NCBI GenBank assembly: GCA_951394045.1
Contig: OX595998.1
Location: forward strand, 124,001-188,000
Source: Nitzschia sp. DOCU1
Taxonomy: Eukaryota; Bacillariophyta; Bacillariophyceae; Bacillariales; Bacillariaceae
DNA: 64,000 nucleotides
Direction of reading: 5' to 3'
This document shows, in pieces, positions 12,574-61,300 of this stretch (the first letter of the stretch is position 1; each line of letters opens with the position of its first letter). The notes below the pieces were generated by a model. The model was not told the origin of the DNA. It saw nothing but the letters and a program-made list of their open reading frames with translations, and did no database searches. The position numbers were made by a program, and so were the translations under genes.

Positions 12574-15177
<2,604 letters not shown>

Positions 15178-15351
15178 TATGGCTCCAGCCGGCCGTGCTT
15201 TGACGTTTTTGCAATTCCGACTACCCCGAGCCGGCCGCGAGCCGGCCGACCCCCAGTCGGGACTCAACGGCTCTCACGATAGACCGTGCTTTTCTCAAAT
15301 TTCCAAACAACAGAGGGAGAACATCAAGCCACCTCCCTCGGCTTGTAGCAA

Positions 15352-22145: not shown

Positions 22146-22157
22146 AGTTTTAAAACT
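22146..22157 (-). promoter_or_regulatory. G1 palindromic primer-site position
   Basis: One nucleotide after the 5' LTR (minus strand) lies AGTTTTAAAACT, a perfect 12-bp palindrome followed by CCCGC. No TGG-initial tRNA complement is present. The position matches the palindromes in G-A, G-B and the TRIM. Confidence 0.7.
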
Positions 22158-22158
22158 G

Positions 22159-22776
22159 TGCCCTATCCCGGGGGTGATGATAATGAAATAAGGACGATGA
22201 TAATTGTGAGACCTATGTTACTTCTATTATATGAACTTCCAACAACAAGATTGACGAGAGGAAAGATTTTTGTCTTTCAAATATTTGCAACCGGTCGTTC
22301 ATTTTGTGAACGACTTTCCCTGCGCATAAAAACAACGCGCATATATTTATTTATTCGAATATGTCGATTGGCCGATAGCGTCGCCTGTAACTAGGCATCC
22401 CAAGTCTTGGCTAGCTACGACTCCTTGATACCCATGGTCTGAATTATTTCCTTGTCCTAAATACATCTCCTCTATTAGGCGATGAATATTTACTACTTAG
22501 ATTGTAGGCATGCCGTTGGCAAGGGACTCTATGGGTTAGTCGAATGTCACTATGCAATATACTACAAAGCGCATTCATGTGCAACGTGGCGGCTCCTTGG
22601 ATCGCTGCGCCGGTGCGCCGTCCGCGACGACGTCACCGTTCGTTCGTGTCCGTGTCCGTTATCTGTCTGTACGCCGTCCGTCCGGCGGACGATTCCGTTC
22701 GCCTTCGACTACTAAGACTACCAACGTGTAGGACTAATATGACTAAACTATTTATGCGTCTCTGTGGGGTATGACA
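22159..22776 (-). repeat. G1 5' LTR
   Basis: 618 bp, starting TGTCATACCCCACAG and ending GGGATAGGGCA on the minus strand. It presumably carries the element promoter, though no TATA box could be assigned with certainty. Confidence 0.9.
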
Positions 22777-33515: not shown

Positions 33516-33716
33516 TGCAGTATACCGGAATATAGTGGGCTATGGAATAGCGCACTAATTCAACAATATGTAATTCCCCGCACTCTCATACAAGAGAGCT
33601 CCAGTAGCGCAGTGGTACTGCCTACAATCACCTTCTAAGCAAGGTCGAGGGTTCGAGACCGAACTCCTCAATCCCCTTTTCGCGCGCATACGCCGACTAG
33701 CGCACGGCGTAGTGCA
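33516..33716 (+). repeat. TRIM left LTR
   Basis: 201 bp, TGCA...TGCA. Orientation is taken from the palindrome and purine tract and follows the + strand. Confidence 0.9.
33596..33680 (+). ncRNA. tRNA-like Pol III unit in the TRIM left LTR
   Basis: TAGCGCAGTGG (33605-33615) fits the internal A box. GGTTCGAGACC (33650-33660) fits the B box, 45 bases on. TTTT at 33677-33680 fits a Pol III terminator. The D-arm pairs partly, but T-arm and acceptor pairing are poor, so this is a tRNA-derived relic rather than a working tRNA gene. Confidence 0.6.
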
Positions 33717-33717
33717 T

Positions 33718-33729
33718 AATGATATCATT
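33718..33729 (+). promoter_or_regulatory. TRIM palindromic primer-site position
   Basis: AATGATATCATT, a perfect 12-bp palindrome one nucleotide after the LTR. It stands where a tRNA primer site would be expected. Confidence 0.7.
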
Positions 33730-34035
33730 GCACCTTTGGTATGTACAAACAGTACAACCATCGTACTTCAACGCAATGATATGCCCCTTCCGAGCGAAGA
33801 GCGAAGCATGTCGAACATCAAGTTGAGGTTGACAACTTCAACATAAGTGTATAAGCCTGACGAACCTTGCGTTCTTCACACGCCACCTCTCAGTAGCATC
33901 ACCTAGACACAGGCCGTAGCGTAGCCTCGTGCTGGCAAATTACCAGACCTCCGCAAATAAGGAGCGCTTCTAGCAATCGCGAATGCTGTGACTGACGAAC
34001 AGATGTGAGCGTGCGACGAATGACATGGGGGCGCA

Positions 34036-34236
34036 TGCAGTATACCGGAATATAGTGGGCTATGGAATAGCGCACTAATTCAACAATATGTAATTCCCCG
34101 CACTCTCATACAAGAGAGCTCCAGTAGCGCAGTGGTACTGCCTACAATCACCTTCTAAGCAAGGTCGAGGGTTCGAGACCGAACTCCTCAATCCCCTTTT
34201 CGCGCGCATACGCCGACTAGCGCACGGCGTAGTGCA
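34036..34236 (+). repeat. TRIM right LTR with second tRNA-like copy
   Basis: 201 bp, same sequence as the left LTR by eye, including A box, B box and T4. Confidence 0.9.
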
Positions 34237-34731
34237 CTTGCGTTAATTTCCGTTCTCGTTCAAATTGGATCCGACTCAACCCTTTCGTCAAGTAGTTGGC
34301 CCGTTGAAGGTCGGTGGATACCTTTTTGACTTGGATGCATCTATTGCTGGCGTTGTCGTCTTCGTCGTCCTTGGGTCCGGCTCCCTTAATGTACTCCCAA
34401 AACCAGTGATAGGTGGTGAAGAAGTACTTCGTTCAGTTGGTGATCTTTTGTTCTGTCATTAGTTGGAAGCAGGCTTGGTTGTCTTCATGGACGGTCGTCA
34501 TGATCTCGGAGTGCAATTCTTGGTTTTCAGGGTGCACTTGAGCCAAAACTTCTTGTACCAAGCGACGAATTGGAATCAGGTGACGGAGGGCTCCAGATGC
34601 GGCGGTATATTCGGCCTCGAGCGTGGAAAGGCTTGTGCGTTGTTGGAGGTGGGATTTCCAAAGGAGGGGGCAACCGCCCAGCGTTATCAAAAATCCCGTC
34701 CGAGACTTGGAGGCGGTTGGGGCAGTATCAG
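34237..34731 (-). pseudogene. Copia RNase H C-terminal segment
   Basis: The minus strand reads T-L-G-G-C-P-L-L-W, then L-S-T-L-E-A-E-Y-T-A, the copia RNase H signature, and H-E-D-N-Q-A-C. It then meets TGA at 34435-34433, where the frame otherwise continues (T-K-Y-F-F-T-T-Y-H-W) to the TRIM. CGA (Arg) to TGA would explain the stop. The segment joins that at 41958-42330 when G-A is removed. Confidence 0.85.
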
Positions 34732-35251
34732 TGCAGTAGGCACGATAATGCCTGAAATGGCGTGACAGGACTAACAGGACTAATGTAGACTAACAGGACT
34801 AGCTATAACGCATAGCATATAACCTAACATACGTACGTACAAATATATACTGCCGACGGACGGACACAGAGGCCACGTGACGTCGTCGAGCATGCCGGAT
34901 GGCGCGCTTGCGCACAGAAAGTGCGACACACACATATGGTCGGAGCGAGGCGACGACGATGTCTATCTTGATGCTAGTCTTGACGCTAGGCGTCAGGACC
35001 TAGGGTCATGCTATAGGTGCTAGAAGGTCATAGGATGCTAGGCGTCACTAACTAGAGCAGTCACAAAGAAACACAACACTGCTAGTTAGGGACGGGCATG
35101 TCTTACCTTCTTGACAACTATCTTGTCTACTAAGATATATAGTCGTGATCACGATCAGATGGGAAGATGGAGTCGATGCAACGATAGATCTACTTTTAAA
35201 ATAGTCTCACAATTTCCAAAAACAATCTACTGCAGTTTCTAGCCTAGTGCA
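34732..35251 (+). repeat. G-A 5' LTR
   Basis: 520 bp. It contains a 12-bp palindrome TCGTGATCACGA at about 35144-35155 and short GACTAACAG repeats near its start. Confidence 0.95.
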
Positions 35252-35263
35252 CTTTGATCAAAG
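35252..35263 (+). promoter_or_regulatory. G-A palindromic primer-site position
   Basis: CTTTGATCAAAG, a perfect 12-bp palindrome immediately after the 5' LTR and 26 nt before the gag ATG. No tRNA-type TGG start is seen. Confidence 0.7.
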
Positions 35264-35289
35264 ACTTGTCAGTCTAGAGGATAAGTATC

Positions 35290-36606
35290 ATGCGTCTCGC
35301 TTTCAACTCGTTCGTTGCCGCTCGTGGCGTCATCCCGTTGTACCCGCCTTGCAAGTGGAAAACTGGCTCGACGGGCTCGTCTGACGGCGCCGGCGACGCC
35401 GACGAGGATGGCTTTCGTTCGGTGAAACTCGAGCTTCGTTCCGTTCCTGGGGATGCGACCTCCCCAAAATACTCCGAAAAGTTCTATGTGTTTGAATCGG
35501 GAACCCCCGAACAGTGGTGTCGCTGGAATGACGATCTCGTTAAGGTTTGGACTTGTTTGAGCCTCACCAATGGCCCCGATCGTCGCGCTATGACTCTTAC
35601 GCTTCTCGCGGGTTCGGCGAAGGACACGTTTGAGGAGTATTTCGCTCGTCCCAGCGTCACTGCGACTGTCGATCATGTGTCTCGTGCGTTGCGTTACGTC
35701 GCAGCTCGGTTCTTCCCTGATTATGCCGCCCAGAATCAGACGTCGTACCTCCGCTACGAGGGTCGTAAGCCTGCAAAGATGTCTGCTCGCGGATTGGCTA
35801 CTGGCTTGCGCCAGGTCAATAAGTGGTTCGATTACTTCCCCAACGATGGTGGCAATCGTACTGACGTGGTTGAACGCCTGAACGAGACCGAACTGCCCCT
35901 GATCTACGAGCGCATGTTGCCTGCCGCGTGGCTGAGTGTTAAGGAGTTGATGTTCCACGATTATCGCCAGAACCGCTTCAACTTCGAGAAGCAGATTGAT
36001 TATGCGGAGCAACTTGAAGTGTACGAGATGCGTCACGGTGTCACCGGACTGCTTGCCTTTGGCTCGAGCAAAGCCAACAAAGGGCGTAAACCCGGGGAAG
36101 CTGGCGTCGCCAGTGGAACCAATGCAGGACCCGAATTGGGAACCCTGAACCGCGGTCGGAAGACGAACCGTGACTCCCCTTCTAAGAAGGGCAATAATGG
36201 TAACAACTCAAAGAACTGCCGCTTGCACGGAGAAGGCTGTGGACACAGCGACTCTGAGTGCAAGGTCTGGCTCAATCATGCGTCTAAGGTCGCTGCGGTC
36301 CGTAAGGCCCAGCACCCCAGTACGCTCAAGAAGGCGCCCCACAAAGGGCGCACAACTCACAACAAGACTTGGCGTCGCGGAGAATCCAATGGCGCGAACC
36401 GCGGAGAACGCACTTACACTTCCAAGGAGGTCCTGGCCATGGTTAAGGCCGCGCGTGCCAGCGTGGAAAAGAAGGCCAAGGAAGACTCCGACGAGGAGAT
36501 GGAACTTAACAACATTGAAGAAGACGAGGATGGAATCTTCGAAGAACTAAGCCCCGAAGATGAGGCTCAGCTTGAGGCCTTCATCAACGAGAACACCAAT
36601 GAATGA
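35290..36606 (+). CDS. G-A gag
   Basis: ATG at 35290 (M-R-L-A-F-N-S-F), 438 aa, TGA at 36604-36606. The capsid-like region has W-C-R-W-N-D-D and a Y-V-A-A-R-F-F-P pattern. A Cys/His cluster near residue 315 (C-R-L-H-G-E-G-C-G-H-S-D-S-E-C) is a probable variant zinc knuckle. The C-terminus is Lys-rich, then Glu-rich. After the TGA the same frame stays open for more than 40 codons into pol, so readthrough would make Gag-Pol. Confidence 0.9.
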   Translation: MRLAFNSFVAARGVIPLYPPCKWKTGSTGSSDGAGDADEDGFRSVKLELRSVPGDATSPKYSEKFYVFESGTPEQWCRWNDDLVKVWTCLSLTNGPDRRAMTLTLLAGSAKDTFEEYFARPSVTATVDHVSRALRYVAARFFPDYAAQNQTSYLRYEGRKPAKMSARGLATGLRQVNKWFDYFPNDGGNRTDVVERLNETELPLIYERMLPAAWLSVKELMFHDYRQNRFNFEKQIDYAEQLEVYEMRHGVTGLLAFGSSKANKGRKPGEAGVASGTNAGPELGTLNRGRKTNRDSPSKKGNNGNNSKNCRLHGEGCGHSDSECKVWLNHASKVAAVRKAQHPSTLKKAPHKGRTTHNKTWRRGESNGANRGERTYTSKEVLAMVKAARASVEKKAKEDSDEEMELNNIEEDEDGIFEELSPEDEAQLEAFINENTNE

Positions 36607-39150
36607 TCACACTACATATGTAATAGCGACTTAATTAATAGGAAACGAATAGCCGCACAATGCCCCGCCGAATGTCACATTCTCTCTAGCCTACATAGGC
36701 CCAAGAAGCGACAGAAAACGCAGCGTTCGCCAGAGGTGCTAATCCTGGTCCCGTCTACAGTACCAGGAGGCGCGCCAATGGTGTTACGTGGGCTTGTTGA
36801 CAGTGGCTGCACAGGAACCATCATCCTAAATGACTTCACAGCTCGGCGCAAAACCTGGAAGGATCGCACCGGACAGTGGACGACGAAGGGTGGTACATTC
36901 TGCACCACGAAGAAGGCAAAGATACCACTGATATTCGCAGACTTCACAAGACAGAAGCAAATAGAATGGGAGTGCCACGTGGACACCCAGTCTAAGTCCA
37001 AACGAGAGAACTACGATATTATACTCGGTAAGGACATACAACAATACATGGGCTTAGATATACTAAATAGTAGCCTCACCCTCAAATGGGATGGAATAGA
37101 AGTACCCATGCGAGAGTTCGGAGCGCTACGCGACCGTAGCAGGGCTATGGAAGTATACAACCTCTCACAAGAGGCGGAGTCTACCGCCGAATTAGCCAAG
37201 CGCACCACCGAGATTTTAGACGCACACTATGAAAAAGCTAACCTAGAACAACTGTGCAAGGAGCAGTCGCACTTGTCAGAGACAGAACAAGGCGACTTGC
37301 TCCGACTACTTCGCAAATATGAAACACTATTTGACGGTACACTCGGCGAGTGGAAGGGAACCGATATTGAGTTAGAACTAAAAGATGATGCAAAGCCATA
37401 TCATGCACGTCCTTTCCCCATACCGCAAGTACACGAAGGCGCTATGCGACGCGAAGTCGAACGACTCTGCGCGTTAGGCGTCTTGGAAGAAGATAATGAT
37501 AGTGAATGGGGGGCACCCTCGTTTATTATCCCCAAAAAGAATGGAACCGTACGATTCATAAGCGACTTCAGAAAGTTAAACACGATGCTAAAGCGTAAGC
37601 CGTATCCTATCCCTAAGATTCAGGACATGCTATTGAAGCTGCAAGGCTTCCAATATGCGAGTTCCTTAGATCTGAACATGGGGTACTATACCATACGTTT
37701 AAGCCCTGCGGCATCAAAGCTATGTACTATTGTGCTGCCCTTCGGCAAGTACAAGTATAAACGCTTACCCATGGGAGTGGCTGGTTCGCCAGATATCTTT
37801 CAAGCAAAAATGTCCTCCCTGATGGCAGGACTCGAATTCGTGCGAACCTATCTCGATGACGTACTCATAGTCAGTCCAAGTACCTTTAACGATCACCTCA
37901 CCAAGCTAGAGAAGGCCCTAGCGCGTATAGCCAAAGCTGGGCTCAAGATCAATGCGCAGAAATCCTTCTTTGGGCGTGGCGAGATCGAGTATCTTGGATA
38001 CTGGGTAACTAGGGAAGGTGTCCAACCTCTCCCCAAAAAGGTTGACAGCATCTTGGCAATGAAAGCGCCGAAGAACAGAAAGGAACTTCGAGGCTTTATT
38101 GGTCTTGTCAACTATTACCGCGACATGTGGAGACGTCGTTCACACGTGCTCGCACCATTAACGTCTATGACATCCAAAAACGTCCCTTGGCGATGGGGCG
38201 AAGAACAGCAAAAGGCCTTCGATGAGGCGAAACATATAATTAGTAAGGAAGCTATACTAGCATTCCCAAATTTCTTAAAACGGTTCGTTATCTACACGGA
38301 CGCTTCTAAGTACCAGCTAGGTGGCGTCATCACGCAGGACGGACGTCCGTTAGCGTTCTACAGCAGGAAACTGACCGACGCGCAGACGCGCTACACGACA
38401 ACCGAGCGTGAACTGCTCTCAATTGTCGAGACTCTGAAAGAGTTCCGTACTATTCTTCTCGGACAGAAGATAACGATCTATACAGATCACAAGAATTTAC
38501 TATTTAATGATCTCAAGACGGATCGCGTGTTACGCTGGCGTCTACTAATTGAAGAATATGGTGCCAACATTGAGTACATCAAAGGCGTCAACAACGTCGT
38601 CGCTGACGTGCTCAGCCGCTATCCTCGTTCTGATACTCCAGTCGTTCCGGTCAGTGCGCCGACGCGAGAACAAGCGCACGAGCTCTTCGCGGGAGATAGG
38701 CTTCCAGCCGACCTCTTCCCTTTGAGCTTTCGCGTCATTGCTGAGTATCAACAACGGGATTTGCAAATGCAACAGCTCACGGAATCTCACCCGGAGGTCA
38801 CACGGAAGATATTCCATGGGGGCGAACAGCTGATTTGCTATAAGGATAAGATTTACATTCCGCGCATACTACGGAACCATGTCATCAATTGGTACCACGA
38901 ATACTTAATGCACCCAGGAGAATTGCGAACGGCAGAAACGATTGCCCAGCATCTCTATTGGCCAGGTATTAAAGCCGACGTTAAGAAAGTAGTTCAACGT
39001 TGCGACCCATGTCAAAAGGGTAAAACGAAAAGGCTTAAGTACGGGAAGCTTCCAGAGAAGCTCGCAGAAGCCCAACCATGGGAACATTTGTGTGTCGACA
39101 CGATTGGACCCTATAAGATCAGACGAAAAGGAAAGAAGCCGCTAGAATTC
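36607..39150 (+). CDS. G-A pol, part 1: protease, RT, RNase H, start of integrase
   Basis: The frame opens directly after the gag TGA. The first ATG is at 36777, after the polyprotein has already begun, so independent initiation is unlikely to give a full protease. Protease: L-V-D-S-G-C-T-G. RT: Y-L-D-D-V-L-I-V-S at about 37850. RNase H: Y-T-D-A-S-K-Y-Q-L-G-G-V and Y-T-D-H-K-N-L-L-F. Integrase finger: H-E-Y-L-M-H-P-G and C-D-P-C-Q-K-G-K. First core Asp: C-V-D-T-I-G-P-Y. Coding is interrupted after L-E-F by T2 at 39151. Confidence 0.9.
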
Positions 39151-39492
39151 CAGGTTTCCTGCAAAGGCAAAAACTGCGGACTTTTTGCCAAAAATAGGTT
39201 ATGAAGGCCTTCGCATCGCAGAATTCCCAAAAACTGGCATTTTACTTTGTGACAAAATGGTGGTTTCACCACCGTTTTGTGATGAAGTCTCCTAAGTACA
39301 AAGTTTACATACGCAATAGACTTTTTGCTTATTTGGGCCCAAAGATTAACACCGCGCCCAAAAATTAATAAGCCCCCCTTGCGGCGTCATTGCTTCGCGA
39401 AAATGCACGGCAGTCAACGCAAGTGTGCATTTCATCGCCTCGTGTCGTCGTCACATATCCCTTGGACTTGCCTCCATTGCATCCATCCAACC

Positions 39493-40119
39493 ATGAGTAG
39501 CACCATTCCAACTGAGAAAAGGAGCAAGCCACCCTTCAGGCGGTCCTTCCCTCTAGTTGAGAAAAATTACAATGCTGCGATTGCTGGCTCGGAATTGAGT
39601 TTTCCATTTCTCAGCCAGAACAACATGGAAGATCTCGTGTTGGTACGAGTGGTAAGTGCAGTCAGTCCATTCCTGGCCAAATACGGCGAGCAGGGCAAAA
39701 AATGGGATGCTGCTGTTGCCATGTTGGCGACAACCCAGGCTCCTGATTGCACTACCCCATTTGGTCAGAACCAGCCCACTGCCCAGAAACTCAAGGCGCG
39801 AGTGACTGAAATGATCAACCTGGGCGAGCAGCTTTTTGATCGTTCGAAGGAGACAGACTCTGACCTTGCCGAGGATAATGACGAAGACACATCCAAGTCG
39901 ACCAAGGCCGAGATTCGCAGTGCAATCATGGATTGGATCGACTTGATAAATGGTGAGAAGGAAGAGCTGGAAAAAGCTCGTTTAGAAAAAGAAGAGAAAA
40001 ACCGGAAAAAAGGTGCCCAGTTCCAAATGATCCAACGCAGTGCAATGGGCTTGGGACTGCTACCAACTACTGGCAATGAACCGAACATGTTAGCCTGGGT
40101 CCTTGCCCCCATGGAATAG
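39493..40119 (+). CDS. T2 ORF1, 208 aa, unknown
   Basis: ATG at 39493 (M-S-S-T-I-P-T-E-K), TAG at 40117-40119. An upstream open stretch from 39325 lacks coding character. The protein has a basic start (K-R-S-K-P-P-F-R-R-S-F-P-L) and a mixed middle. A Glu/Lys coiled coil follows near the C-terminus (E-E-L-E-K-A-R-L-E-K-E-E-K). It may be the accessory DNA-binding ORF of a two-gene transposon; the family is not identified. Confidence 0.5.
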   Translation: MSSTIPTEKRSKPPFRRSFPLVEKNYNAAIAGSELSFPFLSQNNMEDLVLVRVVSAVSPFLAKYGEQGKKWDAAVAMLATTQAPDCTTPFGQNQPTAQKLKARVTEMINLGEQLFDRSKETDSDLAEDNDEDTSKSTKAEIRSAIMDWIDLINGEKEELEKARLEKEEKNRKKGAQFQMIQRSAMGLGLLPTTGNEPNMLAWVLAPME

Positions 40120-40399
40120 TCATATCCTGAACATGACCAAAAACAAAAGTGTATTGGGATGACAAGTCTGGCACAACTTCTTCCAGGAACCACTCAACCA
40201 TGTCAACCTCCATTGTGCTGCTTTCTTCAGAATCTTCAGAATCTGTGGAGCTGCTGTCATCACTGCTCGTATCCTCATCCTCATCATCGTCTTCATCTTG
40301 ATCCATAGCCATGATGGAATCTGCAACACGGATTGACCCCAACAAAAAGTAATGGTACTGCAGCCTTTCGCTGATAGTATTCCATTGATGCAGTGACAT
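40067..40399 (-). CDS. T2 ORF2, 110-aa acidic protein, possible transposase N-terminus
   Basis: ATG at 40399 (M-S-L-H-Q-W-N-T). A long Asp/Glu/Ser tract is followed by V-E-W-F-L-E-E-V-V-P-D-L. It ends at 40067, overlapping the 3' end of ORF1 tail to tail. An acidic start followed by W/F-rich sequence could be the remnant of a truncated transposase. The open frame extends upstream to 40672 through repeat-rich DNA that I do not trust as coding. Confidence 0.3.
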   Translation of the reverse strand: MSLHQWNTISERLQYHYFLLGSIRVADSIMAMDQDEDDDEDEDTSSDDSSSTDSEDSEESSTMEVDMVEWFLEEVVPDLSSQYTFVFGHVQDMTIPWGQGPRLTCSVHCQ

Positions 40400-40710
40400 T
40401 GTATTTGTTGATTGTTGTAGTTGTAGTTCTGCAGTTGTTGTTGTAGTTGTAGTTCTGCAGCCACCACCCTGCTCGATCATCGGTGTTGTCGTTGTTGTTA
40501 TTGCGTGCATGCGGGAGAAATTGCCTGTTCTCGGTGGTGTGGGTTGGTCATAGCGTGCGAAGGCGCGGGAAGGCCAAAACTGGCACGAAGAAGTACCAAA
40601 TGCAGGAAGCACGCGGGGCGCAGCACTTTTTTCCGATGTGGTTTCTGCGGAGAAATCGATTTCTCCGAACAAACTTCCGCACTTTCTGCGTTTGCAGGAA
40701 ACCTCTATTC

Positions 40711-41409
40711 ATGGCACTAACGTTTATTGATCCTGCGACAGGATGGTTCGAGATGACAGAGATCAAGAACAAGCAAGCCGACAACATCGCGAACATGGTA
40801 GAGAAGCAATGGCTCTCGCGATATCCTTGGCCGGAGCTCATCACATATGATGCAGGCCCCGAGTTCAAGGCCGAATTTCAAGAGTTAATTCAGAAAGAAT
40901 ACGCGATCAAGGCGAAGCCTTCATCGAAGCGAAATCCCCAGTCAAACGCCATTCTCGAGAGAGTACATGGTACTATTGGGAACATGATTCGCACCTTCAA
41001 CTTCGACAACGTCGATGACGACGAACCGTTCGCCGGACTGGTGAGCGCCGTATGCTTCGGGATTCGGAGTACTTATCACACGACACTCAAGGCGACACCA
41101 GGACAATTGGTGTTCGGCCGAGACATGATCTTCCCGATCCAACATCAAGCGGATTGGCAGATGATCGAGGAACAAAAACAGCGACGAATTGCTGAAAACA
41201 ACAAAAGAGAAAATGAACGACGAGTCGAACACGACTACGCAGTGTGCGACCGCGTGCTGAAGCTAGTAGCTGACCCAAACAAGGTAGAACCCAAACGTGA
41301 GGGTCCTTGTACTATTGAACGAGTACATGCGAATGGTACGGTCACACTACGCTTCGGCAATATTATCGAGAGACTTAACATAAGACAGATCGTCCCTTAT
41401 AAGTCGTAG
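40711..41409 (+). CDS. G-A pol, part 2: integrase core and C-terminus
   Basis: Continues part 1 in frame after T2. It carries A-L-T-F-I-D-P-A-T-G-W-F, the second core Asp in Y-D-A-G-P-E-F, and the catalytic Glu in N-A-I-L-E-R-V-H-G. A G-P-C/Y module and the ending L-N-I-R-Q-I-V-P-Y-K-S are shared with G1 and G-B. TAG at 41407-41409. Before T2 the integrase would have been complete. Confidence 0.9.
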   Translation: MALTFIDPATGWFEMTEIKNKQADNIANMVEKQWLSRYPWPELITYDAGPEFKAEFQELIQKEYAIKAKPSSKRNPQSNAILERVHGTIGNMIRTFNFDNVDDDEPFAGLVSAVCFGIRSTYHTTLKATPGQLVFGRDMIFPIQHQADWQMIEEQKQRRIAENNKRENERRVEHDYAVCDRVLKLVADPNKVEPKREGPCTIERVHANGTVTLRFGNIIERLNIRQIVPYKS

Positions 41410-41437
41410 GATTAACGGCTTCGATCAGGGGGGCGAG

Positions 41438-41957
41438 TGCAGTAGGCACGATAATGCCTGAAATGGCGTGACAGGACTAACAGGACTAATGTAGACTAAC
41501 AGGACTAGCTATAACGCATAGCATATAACCTAACATACGTACGTACAAATATATACTGCCGACGGACGGACACAGAGGCCACGTGACGTCGTCGAGCATG
41601 CCGGATGGCGCGCTTGCGCACAGAAAGTGCGACACACACATATGGTCGGAGCGAGGCGACGACGATGTCTATCTTGATGCTAGTCTTGACGCTAGGCGTC
41701 AGGACCTAGGGTCATGCTATAGGTGCTAGAAGGTCATAGGATGCTAGGCGTCACTAACTAGAGCAGTCACAAAGAAACACAACACTGCTAGTTAGGGACG
41801 GGCATGTCTTACCTTCTTGACAACTATCTTGTCTACTAAGATATATAGTCGTGATCACGATCAGATGGGAAGATGGAGTCGATGCAACGATAGATCTACT
41901 TTTAAAATAGTCTCACAATTTCCAAAAACAATCTACTGCAGTTTCTAGCCTAGTGCA
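41438..41957 (+). repeat. G-A 3' LTR
   Basis: 520 bp, no difference from the 5' LTR noticed on direct reading. Confidence 0.95.
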
Positions 41958-42330
41958 TCAGGATCAACTTTGAAGAGTCCGGCGAAATTGGCATCGACCC
42001 AGAGGTCCAGGTTCAGATCAGTTCTTGGGTTGATAATTGTTCCCCAATCGGCGGTCCCTTTGAGGTAGCGGAGAAGATGCTTGACGGCTGTCGCATGACT
42101 TTGCTTCGGTTTGTGAACAAAGCGTCCAACTTGGCTGACAGCGAAGGCAATGTCAATGCGAGTATTTGTAGAAAGGTAAAGTAGCGACCCAACTATCGAA
42201 GGATAGCTCCATTTCTCCTGCATCTCCTCACCCTCTGGATCAATTCTGAGCGGCACTGTAGAACAGGGCGTCCAATTTGGATTGCAATCTGTCATACCGG
42301 CTTGTTCGAGTATCTTGTGGATCAAGCCAG
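41958..42330 (-). pseudogene. Copia pol segment between G-A and G-B (RT end / RNase H start)
   Basis: The minus strand begins L-I-H-K-I-L-E-Q-A-G-M, continues through Y-P-S-I-V-G-S-L-L-Y-L and R-Y-L-K-G-T-A-D-W-G, and ends D-L-W-V-D-A-N-F-A-G-L-F. This is the copia RT-RNase H connection with the first RNase H Asp. It has no stops and joins both neighbours in frame. Confidence 0.85.
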
Positions 42331-42844
42331 TGCAGTACACTGCTTTGCACGTCGACTCCTTCGAATGATTGTAGTCCAAAATTATTAGTCTATTTAGTCA
42401 TGTGTGACATCATGTGTGATGACGTAGCATGACGAAAGTGTTGCGCGCGGACCCGGACGCTAGGCCGGTCTCGGACATCGTCGGACAAGGCCCATTACCT
42501 ATTGACGTCACCGACGACGTGACGTTGCATGACGCAGGCATCGTGCATGACTCCAACTAGTCGAATGCCGATGAGATCCTAGTGTCAATGCCACCCAAGA
42601 ATTGGCACCTCGATGACATTGAGGTAACTATACTTTATTCCAGAGTAGCTGACGACGTCCAAAGAACCCTAGTACAACAAGATGCATCAACCTCCTGTTC
42701 GGATTGTTGTCGATGCATGTCAAAGGTCTCGACTCTACTGGAGCTACGAGAGCCTACGAGACAACTTGCATGAGAAATACATCTAGTTTCTAACCTAGCC
42801 ATAAATTTTCACAACTAATTCGATCCTACAAACGACGTAGTGCA
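42331..42844 (+). repeat. G-B 5' LTR
   Basis: 514 bp. It includes the inverted pair ACGTCAC/GTGACGT around GACGAC. Confidence 0.9.
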
Positions 42845-42845
42845 T

Positions 42846-42857
42846 AGTGTTAACACT
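42846..42857 (+). promoter_or_regulatory. G-B palindromic primer-site position
   Basis: AGTGTTAACACT, a perfect 12-bp palindrome one nucleotide after the 5' LTR. Confidence 0.7.
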
Positions 42858-42897: not shown

Positions 42898-44071
42898 ATG
42901 AAGCTTTCTAACGCAACCGTCGCGGCCGTCCGCTATCCCTCGGAACGACATGATGAAAAGGGGTTTTCAACGCGCTCCAATCCCTATCCAACGTGAACCG
43001 GAAGTAATCGTGAACAAAGAGAAGCTCGTGACCTTCAAGTGCCGCAACATTCCCGACGATCCAAACTCGACTCAGTTTGAACTCTCGATCTTGCCTTTTA
43101 ACGGTGATGAGTCGGCCGAGACCTGGTTTCGCTTGCAAGACAAGGCCGAAAAAGTGATCAAGGGTCAGAACTTGACCACTGGTCCTCAGAGGTACGAGTT
43201 TTATCGCCGTATCCTCATCGGAAAGGCTCTTGCTAGGTTCGAAGAGTCTGCAGCGGCAGCTGGAAACGAGACGATCGCAAATCTCAAAGCGACCCTACAA
43301 GGAGTCACCAATTACGTCCTCCCGGCTCGCGCACTTCAAACTCAGAAACGCTACATGCGCCGTTTGTGTTGCAAGCCTCCCGAGATGACCATGAAGGAGT
43401 ACATCAGTCGCTTCCAGCAGCTCAACCATTATTTGTCGTTGTTTGATACTACGCGTGGCGACAGAAACAAACTGCCCAAGGACAAGATTATCGAGCATGC
43501 GGAGTTTGCCATCCCGGCTAGCTGGCGTCAGCAGATGATCCTGCAAGGTTTTGAGCCGATTGATCACACTTTGGACGAGTTCACCCAGTTCTGTGAGCGC
43601 CTCGAATTCACTGAAAAGTTACATGAAGCTAATCACGTCCGTAAGCCAAAGCCAGATGGCGCCCATCCTCCGAAGGGGAAGCGAGACCCGATAATGGATC
43701 ACTCGAAGCCCGCTGCTAAGCGCGGCCCCAATGACAAAACTCCTCCCTTTAAATGTGCCTACCATGACCCTAACTGGTCCCACAACACCGGGGACTGCAA
43801 GATGGTGGTGGCGCAGGCCCAGAAGATGGCTGCCGCCCATGGAAACTTCATCAAGAATGGCGAAAAGAAGCCTCGTTACGGCAACCGTACTTGGGTACGT
43901 GACGATGGCGTCGCCAACAAGAAGGAAGAACTGCATGCCATGATCCAGAACATGGTCAAGGATGCGGTCAAGGACGAACGCAAGCGCAAGGCGGTTGATC
44001 CACCCGACGAGGAAAACTTCAATGTGGACGAACTATTGGCTAACCTTGTCGCTAGCGACGATGAAAACTGA
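42898..44071 (+). pseudogene. G-B gag, N-terminal frameshift
   Basis: An ATG at 42898 (M-K-L-S-N-A-T-V-A-A) sits where the other gypsy gags begin, but that frame shifts by one nucleotide within about 42930-42955. From 42950 the gag frame is open for 373 codons to TGA 44069-44071. It contains W-F-R-L-Q-D-K-A, F-Q-Q-L-N-H-Y-L-S and a C-A-Y-H...H-N-T-G-D-C Cys/His cluster. After the TGA the frame continues into pol (R-C-E-R-A-V-H-E-K). Confidence 0.75.
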
Positions 44072-47000
44072 AGGTGTGAGCGAGCTGTACACGAAAAATC
44101 TAGTTTAATGCATGACTTTAAGGACGAGTTATCCTATTACAAAGTCTCTGAAAGAGTAGGTGGGAAACGCAAAAATTGCGGATGTGACGAAGTTTTCGTT
44201 TTCCACGAGCAACGCGATGGGGCACGACATACGCGCCCATCTGCCTATATACCATCCGAGCCAGGCGAGGTATTCGCCTCGTTGGACCAATGCATTAATT
44301 ACCGTATCGTGGCGGAATCGCACGCGATAACACGACTGTACAACCGAAGCTTCCAGGTGACATCCGACCTTGGCAACTACGACATGATCATTGGCAGAGA
44401 TCTTCTGCGAGAACTAGGTGTCAAGTTCGACTTCAAGACAAGGGAAGTCGAATGGGACTCAGCTGCTATTGCAATGAAAATATTTGGCGAGACGCCCGAC
44501 GAAGACGCCTGGCAGGCCGAGGCAGATGGCGGTGCCAAGTCTATTAAACAAATATTAGACGCTAAATATGCCCCAGCGGACATCCCGCAGAAAATCTCCG
44601 AGATGGACCATCTGTCGGAAGAGGATAAATCCGCCCTCAAGACGCTTCTTCAGAAACATGAGACGCTCTTTGACGGCACGCTCGGTACTTGGAAAGGCGA
44701 GCCCTATGATATTGAGCTAAAACCTAATGTCACGCCATATCATGCGAGGCCATATCCAGTGCCGAAGGCATATGAACAGACGCTACGCGACGAGGTCGAT
44801 CGCCTCTGCGCAGTCGGCGTACTAAAGAAAGTTAACCGCTCTGAATGGGCGGCACCGTCGTTCATCATCCCAAAGAAGGACAAAACGGTGCGGTTCATCA
44901 ACGACTTTCGCGAGCTCAACAAGCGAATTAAGAGGAAGCCATTCCCACTACCAAAGATACAAGAGCTACTGTTAAAACTAGAGGGTTTTCAGTACGGTAC
45001 TAGTTTAGACTTAAACATGGGCTACTACCATGTGGAACTTAGCCCGAATGCAAGGAAACTTTGCACTCTCGTCTTCCCGTGGGGAAAATATGAGATGCAA
45101 CGACTACCTATGGGACTCAGCAATAGCCCCGATATCTTTCAAGAAAAGATGTAGTCGCTGTTCGCGGATCTAGAGTACATACGTACGTACATAGACGACC
45201 TTCTAGTACTTACTAAAGGTAGTTACCTAGACCACCTAGAGAAGCTCGACGTGGTACTACAATGTCTGAAAAACACAGGACTCAAGGTGAACATCAAGAA
45301 GTCCTTCTTCGCAAAAGCAGAGCTTGAATACCTTGGCTACTGGATTACCTGAGACGGCATCCAACCCGTAGCAACCAAAGTGCAGGCAATTCAAGCCATG
45401 CTCGCACCGCGCAATAAAAAGGAACTACGCGCTTTCATCGGTATCGTGAATTATTATCACGATATGTGGGTGCGCCGCTCGCACATCCTCGCCCTGCTCG
45501 CATCACTTACGTCAAAAACGGCTAAGTGGGAGTGGACCAGCGCGCACCAAAATGCATTTGACACGATGAAGAAAATAATAAGTAAGGAAGTTCTCCTGAC
45601 TTACCCGAACTTTCACTTACCGTTCGATATACATACCGACGCGAGCGACACGCAGCTTGGCGCAGTCATCTCGCAAAACGGAAAGCCGATCGCGTGCTAT
45701 AGTCGCAAACTCAATCCCGCGCAAACACGGTATACTACTACCGAGCGGGAACTACTAGCTATTGTAGAAACGCTCAAGGAGTTTCGTACGATTCTCCTGG
45801 GTCAACAGATTCGAGTCTACACTGACCACAAAAATCTCACCTATAAGAATTTTAATACTGAACGCGTTATGCGCTGGCGACTCATCCTCGAAGAGTATGG
45901 TCCCGAACTAGTATACGTTAGAGGTGAGACGAACGTAGTAGCGGACGCTCTTAGTTGACTTGGTAAGGACGAAAAGCCCTTTACCAAGGCCAACTTCGCA
46001 GAGTACTTTGGGGGCGACGAGCTACCCGAAAGCATCTTCCCCCTCACCTACAAGTACATTATGCGACATCAACGCAAAGATACCGCGCTTCTCCAGAAAG
46101 CAGCGTCGGACAATAGATATAGTGTAAAGGTTTTTCGTGGGGGCGGTAAGAAACGTCCTCTAGTAGTTAGGGATAGTAAGATAGTTATTCCGCAGTCACT
46201 CCAACGTCGATGCGTTGAGTGGTACCACGAGACACTGTGTCATCCGGGCGAGACCCGAACGGAGCACACGATTCGGCAGCACTTCTACTGGAAAGGACTG
46301 CGAACAGACGTGGTCGACATCTGCAAAAAATGCAGGCTGTGCCAATTAACAAAGCACAAGACCCTTAAGTATGGGCACCTGCCAATTAAGGAACCCGAGA
46401 GCGAACCCTGGGAAATCCTATGTGTCGACCTCATAGGCCCTTCTTCGATTAACCAGGGTAAACGACATAAAGGTAAACAGAAACAACTCGAGCTTTGGTG
46501 CCTTACCATGATTGACCCGGCAACTGGCTGGTTTGAGATGGTTCGCGTGCCCAACAAAGAGGCTTTTAGTATCGCCGAATTAGCCGAAAAGACGTGGTTC
46601 ACAAGATACCCGTGGCCACAACAAGTCATTTATGACCGCGGTACGGAGTTCATGGGGGAATTCCGGCGAATGGTCAAGGAAGACTACAGCGTGCTTGCGC
46701 GCCCAATCACTGCGAGGAATCCGCAGGCGAACGCAATACTCGACATAGTACACCAAACTATCGGGAACATGATTCGTACGTTTGAACTGCAGCACTCAGA
46801 CGATACAGTCGGTCTCGATGGAATCCTGGCAGCTGTGATGTTCGCCGTTCGCGCGACATACCACACTACGCTACAGGCCACGCCGATGCAACTAGTATTC
46901 GGTAGAGATGCTATTCTCAACACCCGCTTCGAAGCTAACTGGAAGCTCATCCGTGAGCGCAAGATGCAGTGCATTGCGAAGAACAATGCAGCAGAAAACA

Positions 47001-47197
47001 AAACGCGATTGCCGTATGAGTATCGCGTAGGCCAACAGATCATGATCAAGCAGGACCAACAACGTAAATTCGGTGCTAACCCCTATGATGGTCCGTATCC
47101 AATAGTCGCCGTGAATGACAACGGTACAGTACGTATCCAGAAGGGTGCCGTTACTCAGACTTGGAACATTCGTAACATACATCCCTATCATAGTTAA
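44072..47197 (+). pseudogene. G-B pol with three in-frame stops
   Basis: One frame carries the second half of a protease (Y-D-M-I-I-G-R-D-L-L) without the usual D-S/T-G. RT has Y-I-D-D-L-L-V-L. RNase H has H-T-D-A-S-D-T-Q-L-G-A-V. Integrase has H-E-T-L-C-H-P-G, C-R-L-C, C-V-D-L-I-G-P, Y-D-R-G-T-E-F and N-A-I-L-D-I-V-H-Q. The last shows Asp where G-A has the catalytic Glu of L-E-R-V-H. Stops are TAG 45152-45154, TGA 45350-45352 and TGA 45956-45958. The true end is TAA/TAG near 47197 after H-P-Y-H-S. Confidence 0.85.
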
Positions 47198-47224: not shown

Positions 47225-47757
47225 TGCAGTACACTGCTTTGCACGTCGACTCCTTCGAATGATTGTAGTCCAAAATTATTAGTCTATTTAGTCATGTGTG
47301 ACATCATGTGTGATGACGTAGCATGACGAAAGCGTTGCGCGCGGACCCGGACGCTAGGCCGGTCTCGGACATCGTCCGACAAGGCCCATTACCTATTGAC
47401 GTCACCGACGACGTGACGTTGCATGACGCAGGCATCGTGCATGACTCCAACTAGTCGAATGCCGATGAGATCCTAGTGTCAATGCCACCCAAGAATTGGC
47501 ACCTCGATGACATTGAGGTAACTATACTTAATTCCAGAGTAGCTGACGACGTCCAAAGAACCCTAGTACAACGTCGTAGCTAGTCTACTACAAGATGCAT
47601 CAACCTCCTGTTCGGATTGTTGTCGATGCATGTCAAAGGTCTCGACTCTACTGGAGCTACGAGAGCCTACGAGACAACTTGCATGAGAAATACATCTAGT
47701 TTCTAACCTAGCCATAAATTTTCACAACTAATTCGATCCTACAAACAACGTAGTGCA
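47225..47757 (+). repeat. G-B 3' LTR
   Basis: 533 bp, with a 19-bp insertion (GTCGTAGCTAGTCTACTAC region, about 47570-47590) relative to the 5' LTR. Confidence 0.9.
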
Positions 47758-54498: not shown

Positions 54499-54843
54499 AA
54501 CGCTCGACGGTAGAACTTCGATCCCTGTGGGCTCGATTGGTTCTTGTTCGGTTTGGTCTACTTCGTCCGATGCGGTTCCGGTGAAGAACGTAAACGTGCG
54601 TTCAAGGATTGCTCCTGGAGAGAACCTTGAAGTATCTGGCGATTGTTCTCCTTCGCGGTGGTTGATCAGTTCACCGCTTGTTAGAGACGTCCCAGATCCT
54701 GCAGAACTTGGCGTGTCGCCTTCCGGTAAGTCGATACCGTGCTCCAGCTTGTAGCTGTTTGTCTTTGCTCGAGTGACTCAAGCAGGTTTCTTCTTCAGAG
54801 GAAACGTGAAGCTTGTTAGGCAAACGATTTGGGCTCGTTAACC
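54499..54843 (-). other. Copia 5' leader
   Basis: 345 bp between LTR and gag. Right after the LTR the minus strand reads GGTTAACGAGCCCAAATCG. This partly resembles the complement of an initiator-tRNA anticodon arm, so a half-tRNA primer as in Drosophila copia is possible. There is no 12-bp palindrome. Confidence 0.4.
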
Positions 54844-55378: not shown

Positions 55379-58300
55379 TCATGGTGCCGGCGCGGTGGTA
55401 GGATACGAGGACGGAAACTCGGTACTTTGTGGTTTGGGAGAAGGCTCGTCGGAGAGGAACGGTTGTTTGGTGCTTGGTTCCGCAGAAGGGGCGTCAGAGG
55501 GCTTGCTTGTCGGGGGCGAGGTATCCAAAACGAAAGCAGCAGCAGCGCCTGGTGCTGCAGTTGGACACGGTTCCGTCGTTTGAGTTTCCAGTTGGTCTGC
55601 ACATGGGTCCTGGCAATTGAATTCCCAAATATGCGACCCTCCATATCCTAGAGTTCGGTCACATTGCCAGAAAGCCTGATCGTTGCAGGTACTTTCACAA
55701 CAATCTCCTCCGTCTGCAACAACAGTCCGACGTGAGAAAAATGATGCGCTGGACAAGAATTGTAACAAAAACACTGCTGGTAGACTTACCATAGTCGCAT
55801 GCCGCATTATTGTTTTCATTATTACACCAGCCATTACCTAAGCCGAGACTTGGTGAGTATACTTGACATGGCGTCGGCTGGCATTTTTGCAAAAGAGTTG
55901 GTACTCACCGATCCATTGAAAATCAGCACCGGCAGCAGCAGGGCAGTCCACACAGACAGAATACCCAAGATAGTCCAATGCTTCCGGATCGCAGCAAGGG
56001 AAGCCTTGAACACCACAACCGTCACCCTTGCATGAGCTTTTACAGCAATCGCCGCCGTCTGTAGTTGACGGGTCAATGTTAAGCGTAATCGAGTAAGTTA
56101 TTGCTTCGACCGATCGTTCAAAAAGGCACCGTAGACTTACCATACCCGCAAGCTTCATTGTTGTTCCTTAAATCACACCACCCATTACCTAAGCCGAGAC
56201 TTGGTGAGTATACTTGACATGCGTGGGCTGACATCATTGTAAAGAGTTGGTACTCACCGATCCATTGAGGAACACCACCGGCAGCAGGACATCCGACACA
56301 TACAGAATATCCAAGATAGCCTAAAGCGTCCGGGTCGCAACACGCATACCCAGAAAACCCGCATCCATAGTATGATTTTTCTTTGTCGCAGGTACTTTCG
56401 CAACAATCACCGCCATCTGGTCCGACGCAGCGCATAGTATAGGTTTCGTGAGTCGGCTATCGCCACTGATTGAAACGACAAAGGTCGTGGGAGACTTACC
56501 ATAGTCGCATGCCGCATTATTGTTTTCATTATTACACCGGCCATCGCCTGAGCCATGACTTCGTGAGTATACTTGACATGCGTGGGCTGGCATCATTGTA
56601 AAGAGTTGGTACTCACCGATCCATTGAGGCCAACCACCGACAGCACTACATCCCCCACATATATCATCTCCATAATGTTCCGAAGATAGGGCCGGGTCCT
56701 TGCAGCAAGCGAAGCCATCAATGCCACAACCGCTGCCCTCGCAGGAGCTTTCACAGCAATCGCCGCCGTCTGTAGTCGACGGGGCAAGGTTAAGGGTAAT
56801 CGAGTAAGTAATTGCTGCGACCGATTGTTTAAAAAAGGCATTGTAGACTTACCATATTCGCAACCTTCATTGTTGTTCAACAAATCACACCACCCATTGC
56901 CTGAACGAAGAATTGGTGAGTATACTTGACATGCGTCGACTGGCATCATCGAAAATGAGTTTGTACTCACGGATCAACCAAGAATAACCGCCGCCGACGT
57001 TTTCACACTGACAGTCCCCGCCGTCTGTTCGGTAGGACAAGACGCGCCGCAACGTAAAGGGATCGTGGTGAGTCGGCTATTGCGGGTGATTGTAAAAGAC
57101 AATGATCATGGGAGACGTACCATATTCGCAAGCTTCATTGTTGTTCCTCGAATCACACCAGCCATTACCTAAGCCGAGACTTGGTGAGTATACTTGACAT
57201 GCGTCGGCTGGCATCATTGTTAAGAGTTGGTACTCACCGATCCATTGAGGAACACCACCGGCAGCAGGACATCCGACACATACAGAATATCCAAGATAGC
57301 CTAAAGCGTCCGGGTCGCAACACGCATACCCAGAAAACCCGCATCCATAGTATGATTTTTCTTTGTCGCAGGTACTTTCGCAACAATCACCGCCATCTGG
57401 TCCGACGCAGCGCATAGTATAGGTTTCGTGAGTCGGCTATCGCCACTGATTGAAACGACAAAGGTCGTGGGAGACTTACCATAGTCGCATGCCGCATTAT
57501 TGTTTTCATTATTACACCGGCCATCGCCTGAGCCATGACTTCGTGAGTATACTTGACATGCGTGGGCTGGCATCATTGTAAAGAGTTGGTACTCACCGAT
57601 CCATTGAGGCCAACCACCGACAGCACTACATCCCCCACATATATCATCTCCATAATGTTCCGAGGATAGGGCCGGGTCCTTGCAGCAAGCGAAGCCATCA
57701 ATGCCACAACCGCTGCCCTCGCAGGAGCTTTCACAGCAATCGCCGCCGTCTGTAGTCGACGGGGCAAGGTTAAGGGTAATCGAGTAAGTAATTGCTGCGA
57801 CCGATTGTTTAAAAAAGGCATTGTAGACTTACCATATTCGCAACCTTCATTGTTGTTCAACAAATCACACCACCCATTGCCTGAACGAAGAATTGGTGAG
57901 TATACTTGACATGCGTCGACTGGCATCATCGAAAATGAGTTTGTACTCACGGATCAACCAAGAATAACCGCCGCCGACGTTTTCACACTGACAGTCCCCG
58001 CCGTCTGTTCGGTAGGACAAGACGCGCCGCAACGTAAAGGGATCGTGGTGAGTCGGCTATTGCGGGTGATTGTAAAAGACAATGATCATGGGAGACGTAC
58101 CATATTCGCAAGCTTCATTGTTGTTCCTCGAATCACACCAGCCATTACCTAAGCCGAGACTTGGTGAGTATACTTGACATGCGTCGGCTGGCATCATTGT
58201 TAAGAGTTGGTACTCACCGATCCATTGAGGAACACCACCGGCAGCAGGACATCCGACACATACAGAATATCCAAGATAGCCTAAAGCGTCCGGGTCGCAA

Positions 58301-61300
58301 CACGCATACCCAGAAAACCCGCATCCATAGTATGATTTTTCTTTGTCGCAGGTACTTTCGCAACAATCACCGCCATCTGGTCCGACGCAGCGCATAGTAT
58401 AGGTTTCGTGAGTCGGCTATCGCCACTGATTGAAACGACAAAGGTCGTGGGAGACTTACCATAGTCGCATGCCGCATTATTGTTTTCATTATTACACCGG
58501 CCATCGCCTGAGCCATGACTTCGTGAGTATACTTGACATGCGTGGGCTGGCATCATTGTAAAGAGTTGGTACTCACCGATCCATTGAGGCCAACCACCGA
58601 CAGCACTACATCCCCCACATATATCATCTCCATAATGTTCCGAGGATAGGGCCGGGTCCTTGCAGCAAGCGAAGCCATCAATGCCACAACCGCTGCCCTC
58701 GCAGGAGCTTTCACAGCAATCGCCGCCGTCTGTAGTCGACGGGGCAAGGTTAAGGGTAATCGAGTAAGTAATTGCTGCGACCGATTGTTTAAAAAAGGCA
58801 TTGTAGACTTACCATATTCGCAACCTTCATTGTTGTTCAACAAATCACACCACCCATTGCCTGAACGAAGAATTGGTGAGTATACTTGACATGCGTCGAC
58901 TGGCATCATCGAAAATGAGTTTGTACTCACGGATCAACCAAGAATAACCGCCGCCGACGTTTTCACACTGACAGTCCCCGCCGTCTGTTCGGTAGGACAA
59001 GACGCGCCGCAACGTAAAGGGATCGTGGTGAGTCGGCTATTGCGGGTGATTGTAAAAGACAATGATCATGGGAGACGTACCATATTCGCAAGCTTCATTG
59101 TTGTTCCTCGAATCACACCAGCCATTACCTGAACGAGACATTTTGTGAGTATTTTTGTGAGCATAATACACTTGCACCGTAGTAGTTAGTACTTACCACT
59201 CCACTTTGGATCGCCAAAGGTAGCAGCACATTGACATTGTATACCATCCCCAACATATTCCGACGTTAGTGTCGGGTTGCAGCAGGTGTAGCCAATGGAA
59301 CCACAAAGATCACCAGGGCTGACACAGGTACTTTCACAGCAGTCCCCACCATCTAGAGCCAAGTAAAAGCAGGAGGTAGCACGAGGGGAAGTGTAAAGGA
59401 GTCAGTAAAAGTGGCTGAATGTGACAACAAATACTGGTTGTAGACTTACCATATTCGCACTCAGGATTGTTGTTGTGCGAATTACAATACCCATCGCCTA
59501 AAGCAAAGATTTCATGAGATTCCTTGGCAGCATTGACTGGTATCGGTGAGGATCCGTACTACTTACCAACAGAAGGTAGAAAACCACCGCAATCTGGATA
59601 TGCTGATTTGTCTTTGCAATTGAACGGGGCTATATTTCCACATGTATAAGTCGTACTGATGCAACTAGCTGGACAACAATCTCCGCCGTCTTGGAAAGGG
59701 GGAATGAGTCAGTACTAGTTCCGACGTTGTCGTCCAACACAATGATGGAGTGTGAACGTACCAAAATTGCACCCAAACTTGTTGTTGATCGAGTCGCACC
59801 GTCCATTACCTGACCCGCAAAATAAAGCACTCGTGAGAGTTGTCGGCTGCATCCGCTGGCGTGGAAGAGGAGTATTCCTTACCGATGAGATCATCGTCGC
59901 AAGAACACATTTCCATCGAATTAGTTTCCTGTGGGTCTGCACATGAGTCCCTGCAATCGTATCCATCCCAAGAACCGCAATCCCATTCTGGGGTAGGGAT
60001 GCAGGTACTTTCACAACAGTCCCCGCCGTCTGCAACAACAGTCCGACGTGAGGAAAATGAAACGCTGGACAAGAATTGCAAGAAAACCACTGGTGGTAGA
60101 CTCTTACCATACCCGCATGCAGCCATGTTGTTGATATCATCACACGCGCCATCGCCTGAAAAGAACATTTCGTGAGATTTATCGGCCTGTGTCGGCTGGC
60201 ATCGTCGGAACGAGATTGTACTTACTGATATAAGGAACAATACCGCCGGCAGCAGGACATCCCCCACATATATCCTCACCAAGATACTCCGAAGCTAGCG
60301 CCAACGGGTTGCAGCACCCGAAAATAGCATAACCGCAACCCCAGTATGCGTTAGCGTCGCAGGTGCTTGGGCAACAATCTCCGCCGTCTGATCCGACGCG
60401 ACGCACGGTAAGGGGCTCGTGAGTCATATATTGCGACTGATTGTAACAAATACACAGGTGGGAGCCTTACCATAGTCGCATTCAAAATTATTATTCTCAT
60501 TATCACAGTAGCCATCGCCTGAACAGGACATTTCGTGAGAATTCTTGTGAGCAGGCATTGAATGTTGGCACCGTACTGAATCCCTACTGCTTACCGATCC
60601 AGGGTAAATAACCACTGCAAACTGGATATGCTAATGGATCTTGGCAATCGAACCAAAAACAATCTCCGTCGCAAGTACTTTTGCAGCAGTCCCCACCGTC
60701 TAGAAGTTAAGTGGAAGCAGAACGAAGCACGAGGGAAAGGGTAATCAAGTCAGTAGCTGTGGTTGAGTGTGACAACCAATATACTGGTTGTAGACTTACC
60801 ATATCCGCACCCAGCATTGTTGTTGAACGAATCACAATACCCATCGCCTAAAGCAATGATTTCATGAGGTTCCGTGGCAGCTTTGACTGGTACCGGATGT
60901 GACCCCTGCTAGTACTTACCGACATACGGCAGATAACCATCATCGCAATCCGGATATGCTAATGGGTCTGTGCAGTTGAACGGAGCCTCTCCTCCACATG
61001 TATATGAAGTAGAACCTATGCAAGTAGCTGGGCAACAATCTCCACCGTCTTGGAAGGCGGAATTGAGTCACTATTAGTTCCGACAATACAATGATGGAGT
61101 GCTAACTTACCGAAATCGCACTCAAAATTGTTGTTGATCGAGTCGCACCGTCCATCACCTGAACCGAAAAAAAATTGTCAGAGCCGTCGGCTGCATCCAC
61201 TGGCGTCGTATTCTAACCCTACTTACCGATGAAGCTGGTAACGCCGGTACAAGCTGCGGCGGAAGCCGTTGCGCGTGCGGGCGCATTTGGATCGATGCAG

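Follow-up and report, generated by a model that had tools for sequence, protein, structure and literature searches.

We have found that four of the six long terminal repeat (LTR) elements recognised in a 64,000-nt stretch of Nitzschia sp. DOCU1 DNA (contig OX595998.1, positions 124,001 to 188,000; the whole stretch is called the window below, and coordinates refer to it) carry a perfect 12-bp palindrome that starts 0–1 nt past the final CA of the 5' LTR. Three of them are Ty3/gypsy elements (G-A, G-B, and G1) and the fourth is a non-autonomous terminal-repeat retrotransposon in miniature (TRIM). Comparison with related elements points to a primer-binding site (PBS) that may have been selected to self-pair between two genomic RNAs, a reading to which we give a probability of about 0.52. 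The features concerned are the following.

33516–33716, forward strand: TRIM 5' LTR (TGCAGTA...TAGTGCA), direct repeat with 34036–34236; target duplication CTTG
33718–33729, forward strand: TRIM palindrome AATGATATCATT, 1 nt (T) past the LTR
34036–34236, forward strand: TRIM 3' LTR, direct repeat
34732–35251, forward strand: G-A 5' LTR (TGCAGTA...TAGTGCA); target duplication TCAG
35252–35263, forward strand: G-A palindrome CTTTGATCAAAG, 0 nt past the LTR
35278–41409, forward strand: G-A gag/pol reading frames (reverse transcriptase (RT), RNase H, integrase), interrupted in the window copy
41438–41957, forward strand: G-A 3' LTR, direct repeat
42331–42844, forward strand: G-B 5' LTR; target duplication CCAG
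42846–42857, forward strand: G-B palindrome AGTGTTAACACT, 1 nt (T) past the LTR
42902–47197, forward strand: G-B gag/pol reading frames, interrupted
47225–47757, forward strand: G-B 3' LTR, direct repeat
22159–22774, reverse strand: G1 5' LTR, with its inner edge near 22159 and an approximate outer edge
22146–22157, reverse strand: G1 palindrome AGTTTTAAAACT, 1 nt (C) past the LTR
12656–15220, reverse strand: G1 pol (RT, RNase H, H2C2)
54829–54843, reverse strand: GGTTAACGAGCCCAA directly past the 5' LTR of the window copia element, a contrast case that has no palindrome

The positions and perfect symmetry of these four palindromes had been given in a preliminary description of the window and are confirmed here. 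The elements show RT-RNase H followed by integrase, LTRs and TG...CA ends, as expected for Ty3/gypsy, the assignment of TRIM, which has no pol, referring to LTRs and ends only. Target duplications of 4 bp, read in the flanks of G-A, G-B, and TRIM, fix their LTR ends, and the G1 edge was placed from its two LTR copies alone. Palindromic 12-mers occupy 22 of the 63,989 places in the window, where its composition predicts 15.6; this corresponds to a background chance of 1 in 4,109 per place (the 1 in 4,096 given previously was right on that basis) and, with a spacing of 0–1 nt allowed, arithmetically to about 1 in 2,000 per element. Finding four of six elements palindromic would then be of the order of 1e-12 by chance, and the earlier view that the four are not accidental agrees with these counts.

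The LTR border and the symmetry beside it hold across copies. In one element of the g1212 family the 5' and 3' LTR copies stop at the identical base, 1 nt before the palindrome. Searches with the junction DNA of three other families (G-D, G-F, and G-E) gave LTR-only matches, most of them ending where the LTR ends (query positions 299–300, 298, and 299, respectively), with a few rows that continue 1–17 bases past it or stop earlier. Among the 16 distinct G-A copies with flanks intact enough for the pattern, 15 keep the exact palindrome and the sixteenth has a C-to-T change at the outermost base, with a U.G pair retained. Genome-wide, the pattern GTAGTGCAY NN TG NNNN CA was found at 144 places (74 + 70), the control pattern at 1. 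The central four bases are free positions of this pattern, and it is their symmetry that the matches reveal: among those listed they are self-complementary in 98 of 100 places, all 98 belonging to the known families G-B, G-C, G-F, and TRIM and the remaining two being other sequence.

Within the 52-Mb genome to which the window belongs, 150 of the 410 candidates of an RT search were scored and 20 loci were picked to spread over families, 1.3 kb being taken from each at the expected junction. The palindrome adjoins the LTR end in 19 of these 20, as TCTGAATTCAGA in 13 loci (G-D), AGTTTTAAAACT in two (G1), TTTGATATCAAA in two (g1212), AGTGTTAACACT in one (G-B), and TTCTGATCAGAG in one (G-E), this last having ten Watson-Crick pairs with U.G at both ends. 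In the g1212 loci (L051 and L052) a chance palindrome in coding sequence was considered and excluded, as two LTR copies put it 1 nt past the LTR. The twentieth locus (L046) stops short of the junction in the stretch fetched; a junction match resembling G-D was found further upstream. An integrase search (150 of 325 candidates scored) supplied eight further loci, four with the G-F palindrome CGTGAATTCACG, one G-B, two of a distant gypsy-like family (G-W), and one whose LTR was not found (L062); one G-F copy (L061:676-691) has three extra bases between LTR and palindrome. The family G-C (L034) carries AGTGTTAACACT, as does G-B. The palindrome thus recurs in every gypsy family of this RT clade with a junction read, and in TRIM, amounting in this genome to eight sequences, seven of them perfect and one (G-E) as described above.

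The G-W junction, that of the window's own G-W element included, has no palindrome; its RT is about 27% identical to that of G-A. L062, L046, and G-W stand outside the counts. The terminal repeats of G-W (window 1–6973 and upstream; L118, L119), of about 310 bp, include the gag start and are followed by TGGTATCCCGGG, which resembles a canonical tRNA site, with no match beyond chance to the tRNAs tested (see below).

When records of bacterial genomes were scanned with a gypsy alignment, seven loci were recovered (L157–L163), all of them in records of metagenome-assembled genomes (MAGs) labelled Moorena, Sphingomonadales, Shewanella, Flavobacteriaceae, Balneolaceae, Muriicola, and Leptolyngbya (the last a 40-residue match), which are probably eukaryotic contamination. 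The junction is readable in five of the seven, and in all five a palindrome stands 1 nt past an LTR-like end:

L157: AGTGTTAACACT
L160: AGTCAATTGACT
L158 and L162: TATCAATTGATA
L159: TGTTATAACA, ten bp, with C-A at the ends

Three new palindrome sequences are added in this way. The LTR ends of these five junctions rest on the common end motif, not on two LTR copies, and those of L157, L158, and L160 also on overlapping contig ends, as if two LTRs had collapsed. Outside the counts are L161, which starts inside an element, and L163, in which no element was recognised. Bacterial genomes scanned with the G1 protein alone gave no match, and the viral contigs scanned held no relatives. At E<=1e-30, 1,641 database relatives were counted, so that material for a wider comparison exists.

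What these sequences keep as they change is their symmetry. We have scored the 12 distinct palindromes, that is, the palindromic junctions, the non-palindromic ones standing outside these counts. Of their 72 base pairs 70 are Watson-Crick and ten of the palindromes are perfect, the exceptions lying at the ends of G-E (U.G) and L159 (C-A); column shuffles of the same sequences (2,000) gave a mean of 30.0 pairs and a maximum of 43. When the centre was shifted by -6 to +9 nt at ten junctions of this genome, the pairs fell from 59/60 to 7–19. G1, L160, and L157 form a clade in the RT tree (support 93/94, just under the 95/80 mark of the tool) with identical flanks, TAGGGCAC before the palindrome and CCCG after it. 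Their palindromes AGTTTTAAAACT (G1), AGTGTTAACACT (L157), and AGTCAATTGACT (L160) differ in matched inner pairs only, the bases having altered on both sides of the centre, a compensatory change. The covariation among relatives that the preliminary description had proposed to look for is therefore present, and pairing through the palindrome is well supported by these comparisons.

In the second superfamily, we have compared seven copia families with the junction placed by two LTR copies. Two of them (cop1489 and cop1507) have at +0 GGTTATGAGCCCA, an exact 13-nt complement of the anticodon arm of the nuclear initiator tRNA. The window copia, whose LTR ends in ...TCTCTACA followed by GGTTAACGAGCCCAAATCG on the reverse strand, has a site resembling the half-tRNA-iMet site of these two sister families, with 7 nt matched, and cop2085 resembles the same site with 8 nt, both matches lying within shuffles. 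Another family, cop1548, reads GGTAGCTCCAC and has no match among the tRNAs tested, and cop1396 has neither palindrome nor tRNA match. All six are without a palindrome at the junction. The seventh, cop1871 (L077), has the LTR end CGTAACA followed at +0 by the palindrome TACCGATCGGTA, the ninth sequence in this genome, and its second copy (L132) likewise, so that a palindrome occupies the primer place in a second superfamily as well. The previous statement that copia lacks the feature stands for the window element and five other copia junctions and fails for the cop1871 family. Loci whose LTR end has no two-copy placement are outside these counts (cop1404, cop1432, cop1381, cop1471, L133–L136, L138–L143, and L137). 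As a separate observation, six of ten copia loci (L069–L074) have gag and pol in one frame with a single stop between them, TGA in all six, which suggests stop-codon readthrough.

No other primer emerged at the palindromic junctions. The tRNA set, which is incomplete, comprised 21 sequences, namely 20 nuclear genes covering 16 anticodons and a part of tRNA-iMet, and against it the longest exact complement at the 12 palindromic junctions of this genome was 8 nt, within shuffles; the positive control was the 13 nt of cop1489 and cop1507. To that extent the absence of a tRNA complement reported earlier holds. A Tf1-type complement in the LTR stretch reached at best 4–7 nt, within shuffles, at 11 of 12 junctions (the LTR stretch of G-C was too short, and that of G-E2 was about 60 nt only), and the distinction from Tf1-type folding, also drawn in the preliminary description, is borne out. 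Comparison of the first 20 nt with the tRNAs tested and with the LTR revealed no separate PBS beside the palindrome.

These observations lead us to a possible mechanism made up of dimerisation, a cut, extension and removal of a tail. Minus-strand synthesis must begin at the LTR border, so whatever pairs with the palindrome there would be the natural primer. Each palindrome has one partner that is certain to match it, namely its identical counterpart on a second RNA. Two genomic RNAs would pair via the 12-nt palindrome, and one RNA of the pair would be cut just 3' of it. The 3'-OH of the cut RNA, opposite the first base of the palindrome on the uncut partner, would then be extended through the spacer, U5, and R to give the minus-strand strong-stop DNA. 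It may be objected that the cut RNA, as primer, would still carry R-U5 as a tail; because this tail is complementary to the cDNA made from its sister, RNase H could remove it in cis, leaving a primer of about 12 nt. With only one RNA cut, the partner would retain its palindrome, usable in the second (plus-strand) transfer after minus-strand transfer and synthesis back to the palindrome. The comparisons above support this proposal, as do two further observations: the palindrome stands at the place of minus-strand start, where cop1489 and cop1507 have their tRNA complement, and the non-autonomous TRIM has a palindrome of its own, as it should if RNAs have to find a partner of their own family. 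As a further class of LTR-element primer, in which a palindromic PBS pairs two genomic RNAs and one primes on the other (homotypic trans-priming), it is offered tentatively, at somewhat less than even odds.

Several points weigh against it. No conserved base on the 3' side adjoining the palindrome marks a cut site, and the 12-bp duplex is mostly A+T-rich and weak (-10 to -19 kcal/mol), with 10 Watson-Crick pairs rather than 12 in G-E and L159. Being dyad-symmetric, the duplex might be cleaved in both strands, and both RNA bodies would then lose the palindrome. Hairpins after the palindrome are rarely significant: suggestive ones stand in G-B (p 0.003) and G-E (p 0.037), the 2 of 12 junctions with p<0.05, and one of the 5 non-palindromic controls, cop1507 (0.047), also passes that level, so that a conserved hairpin there was rejected as a general feature. 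The incompleteness of the tRNA set, and the scoring of exact complementary runs only, count on the same side.

The rival that survives best, although we consider it unlikely, is that the palindrome is a dimer-linkage or packaging signal only, like the retroviral dimer initiation site (DIS), and that another, unrecognised molecule primes the minus strand. PMC5445492 discusses retroviral DIS as palindromes linked to reverse transcription, and the symmetry evidence backs pairing, not priming as such. However, in gypsy and in one copia family the palindrome occupies precisely the position of a primer site, no other primer candidate appeared in the search above, and the known DIS is described in the same paper as a hairpin-loop palindrome additional to a separate PBS.

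Priming in cis is improbable. After the cut the palindrome would snap back into a mini-hairpin (4-bp stem, 4-nt loop), which requires inverted halves beside the LTR and would also lead one to expect covariation of the outer pairs. A loop has no need of self-complementarity, yet the central 4 nt are self-complementary in 12 of 12 distinct palindromes; such a centre is unneeded by a hairpin and needed by a two-molecule duplex, which favours pairing between two molecules. A cut in cis would moreover take the palindrome off the body of that RNA, so a second RNA would still be required. The preliminary description had proposed that genomic RNAs pair through the palindrome and that a cut 3' of it primes synthesis, and it is the two-molecule pairing that the centre indicates. 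Decidedly improbable is a host RNA outside the set tested (the remaining tRNAs, a small nuclear RNA, etc.) as primer, with the symmetry incidental. The set covered leaves room for it, but a perfect palindrome would be unneeded and the differing palindromes would require many partners. We regard as more doubtful still a dyad bound at the DNA level by a dimeric protein (transcription factor or integrase). Homodimer sites are typically palindromic, but the 12 different sequences keep mainly their symmetry, with compensatory change, where a protein site would keep its sequence, and the missing primer site would be left unexplained. Chance, or common descent of one fixed sequence, is negligible in spite of one sequence being common to G-B, G-C, and L157 and another to L158 and L162, given 12 distinct sequences in two superfamilies and contigs of several sources, and chance in particular is ruled out by the symmetry statistics and the window background.

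With regard to the surrounding structure, the G-D fold places the palindrome near the tip of a U5/leader stem and most other folds differ; this stem was rejected as a G-D feature, the subfamily sequences showing, by eye, mismatches and not compensation. In G-E and G-E2 (L056, L152–L156) a GAGC...GCTC hairpin overlaps the last bases of the palindrome, its loops changed and the palindrome kept, and a CAGAA further on could pair with the TTCTG of the palindrome. Elsewhere in the window, the G-A copy measures about 7.2 kb, whereas in a copy on C8 the LTR matches are about 5.7 kb apart; the window copy thus seems longer by some 1.5 kb of additional sequence. Related repeats at 55684–61174 are arrayed in 980-bp higher-order units.

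To our knowledge, the primers known for LTR elements are tRNAs, half-tRNAs and the Tf1-type fold-back of the element's own RNA. Half-tRNA priming is the Drosophila copia type, and its site, directly past the LTR as here and itself present in cop1489 and cop1507, matches a host tRNA and is not palindromic. Priming by 1/2tRNA-Met is also described in plant copia (PMC6317226). According to PMC4600332, the PBS of Tf1/Tj1 pairs with a 5' stretch of its own mRNA; the likeness is that the element's own RNA is the proposed primer, without a tRNA, whereas at our junctions the site is self-complementary and finds no LTR complement exceeding shuffles. The retroviral DIS shares a palindrome pairing two genomic RNAs, predicted here from sequence, but in our elements the palindrome takes the place of the PBS. 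The closest precedent is the conserved hairpin site of the fungal GalEa elements (Ty1/copia; PMC5445492, cited by PMC6934838). These are described as having no tRNA primer site and no Tf1-type complement, and the authors propose a PBS role for a palindrome at the 5' LTR end, stating that no earlier-described model fits. That palindrome has 10 nt including one LTR base, occurs as two sequences in 85% of families, and is followed 12–41 bp downstream by an inverse-complementary copy, CHSeq2 (PMC5445492). Our junctions resemble it in their position directly at the 5' LTR end and, as far as the tested sets go, in lacking both complements. They differ in being mainly Ty3/gypsy by pol, in having 12 nt that start past the LTR, and in numbering 11 sequences outside copia with compensatory change. 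A second downstream copy is also lacking: in 15 gypsy/TRIM junctions no inverse-complementary run rises above shuffles. In cop1871 a 6-nt CHSeq2-like run (shuffle fraction 0.05) lies inside an inverted repeat, of which the second copy retains part. What is new with respect to GalEa is a mainly different superfamily, a longer palindrome and many sequences with compensatory change on contigs from several sources. Diatoms have their own Ty3/gypsy lineage, GyDi (PMC2806351), and in a term search of the main text of that paper "primer binding" and tRNA are absent. We found no report of palindromic gypsy primer sites or of dimer priming in a literature search that had most subscription papers outside its scope.

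If the proposal is true, homotypic trans-priming would be the norm in a large gypsy clade, with a separate origin in a copia lineage. It would also account for the fungal GalEa site, to which the palindromic PBS proposed here offers a model. A self-complementary primer site that changes its sequence and keeps its symmetry would be a new solution to priming without a host tRNA. Dimerisation, with two genomes per particle, would be tied directly to the start of reverse transcription, and such priming, depending on two genomes, would keep families from priming one another. A palindrome at the primer place would also allow such elements to be recognised simply from their sequence.

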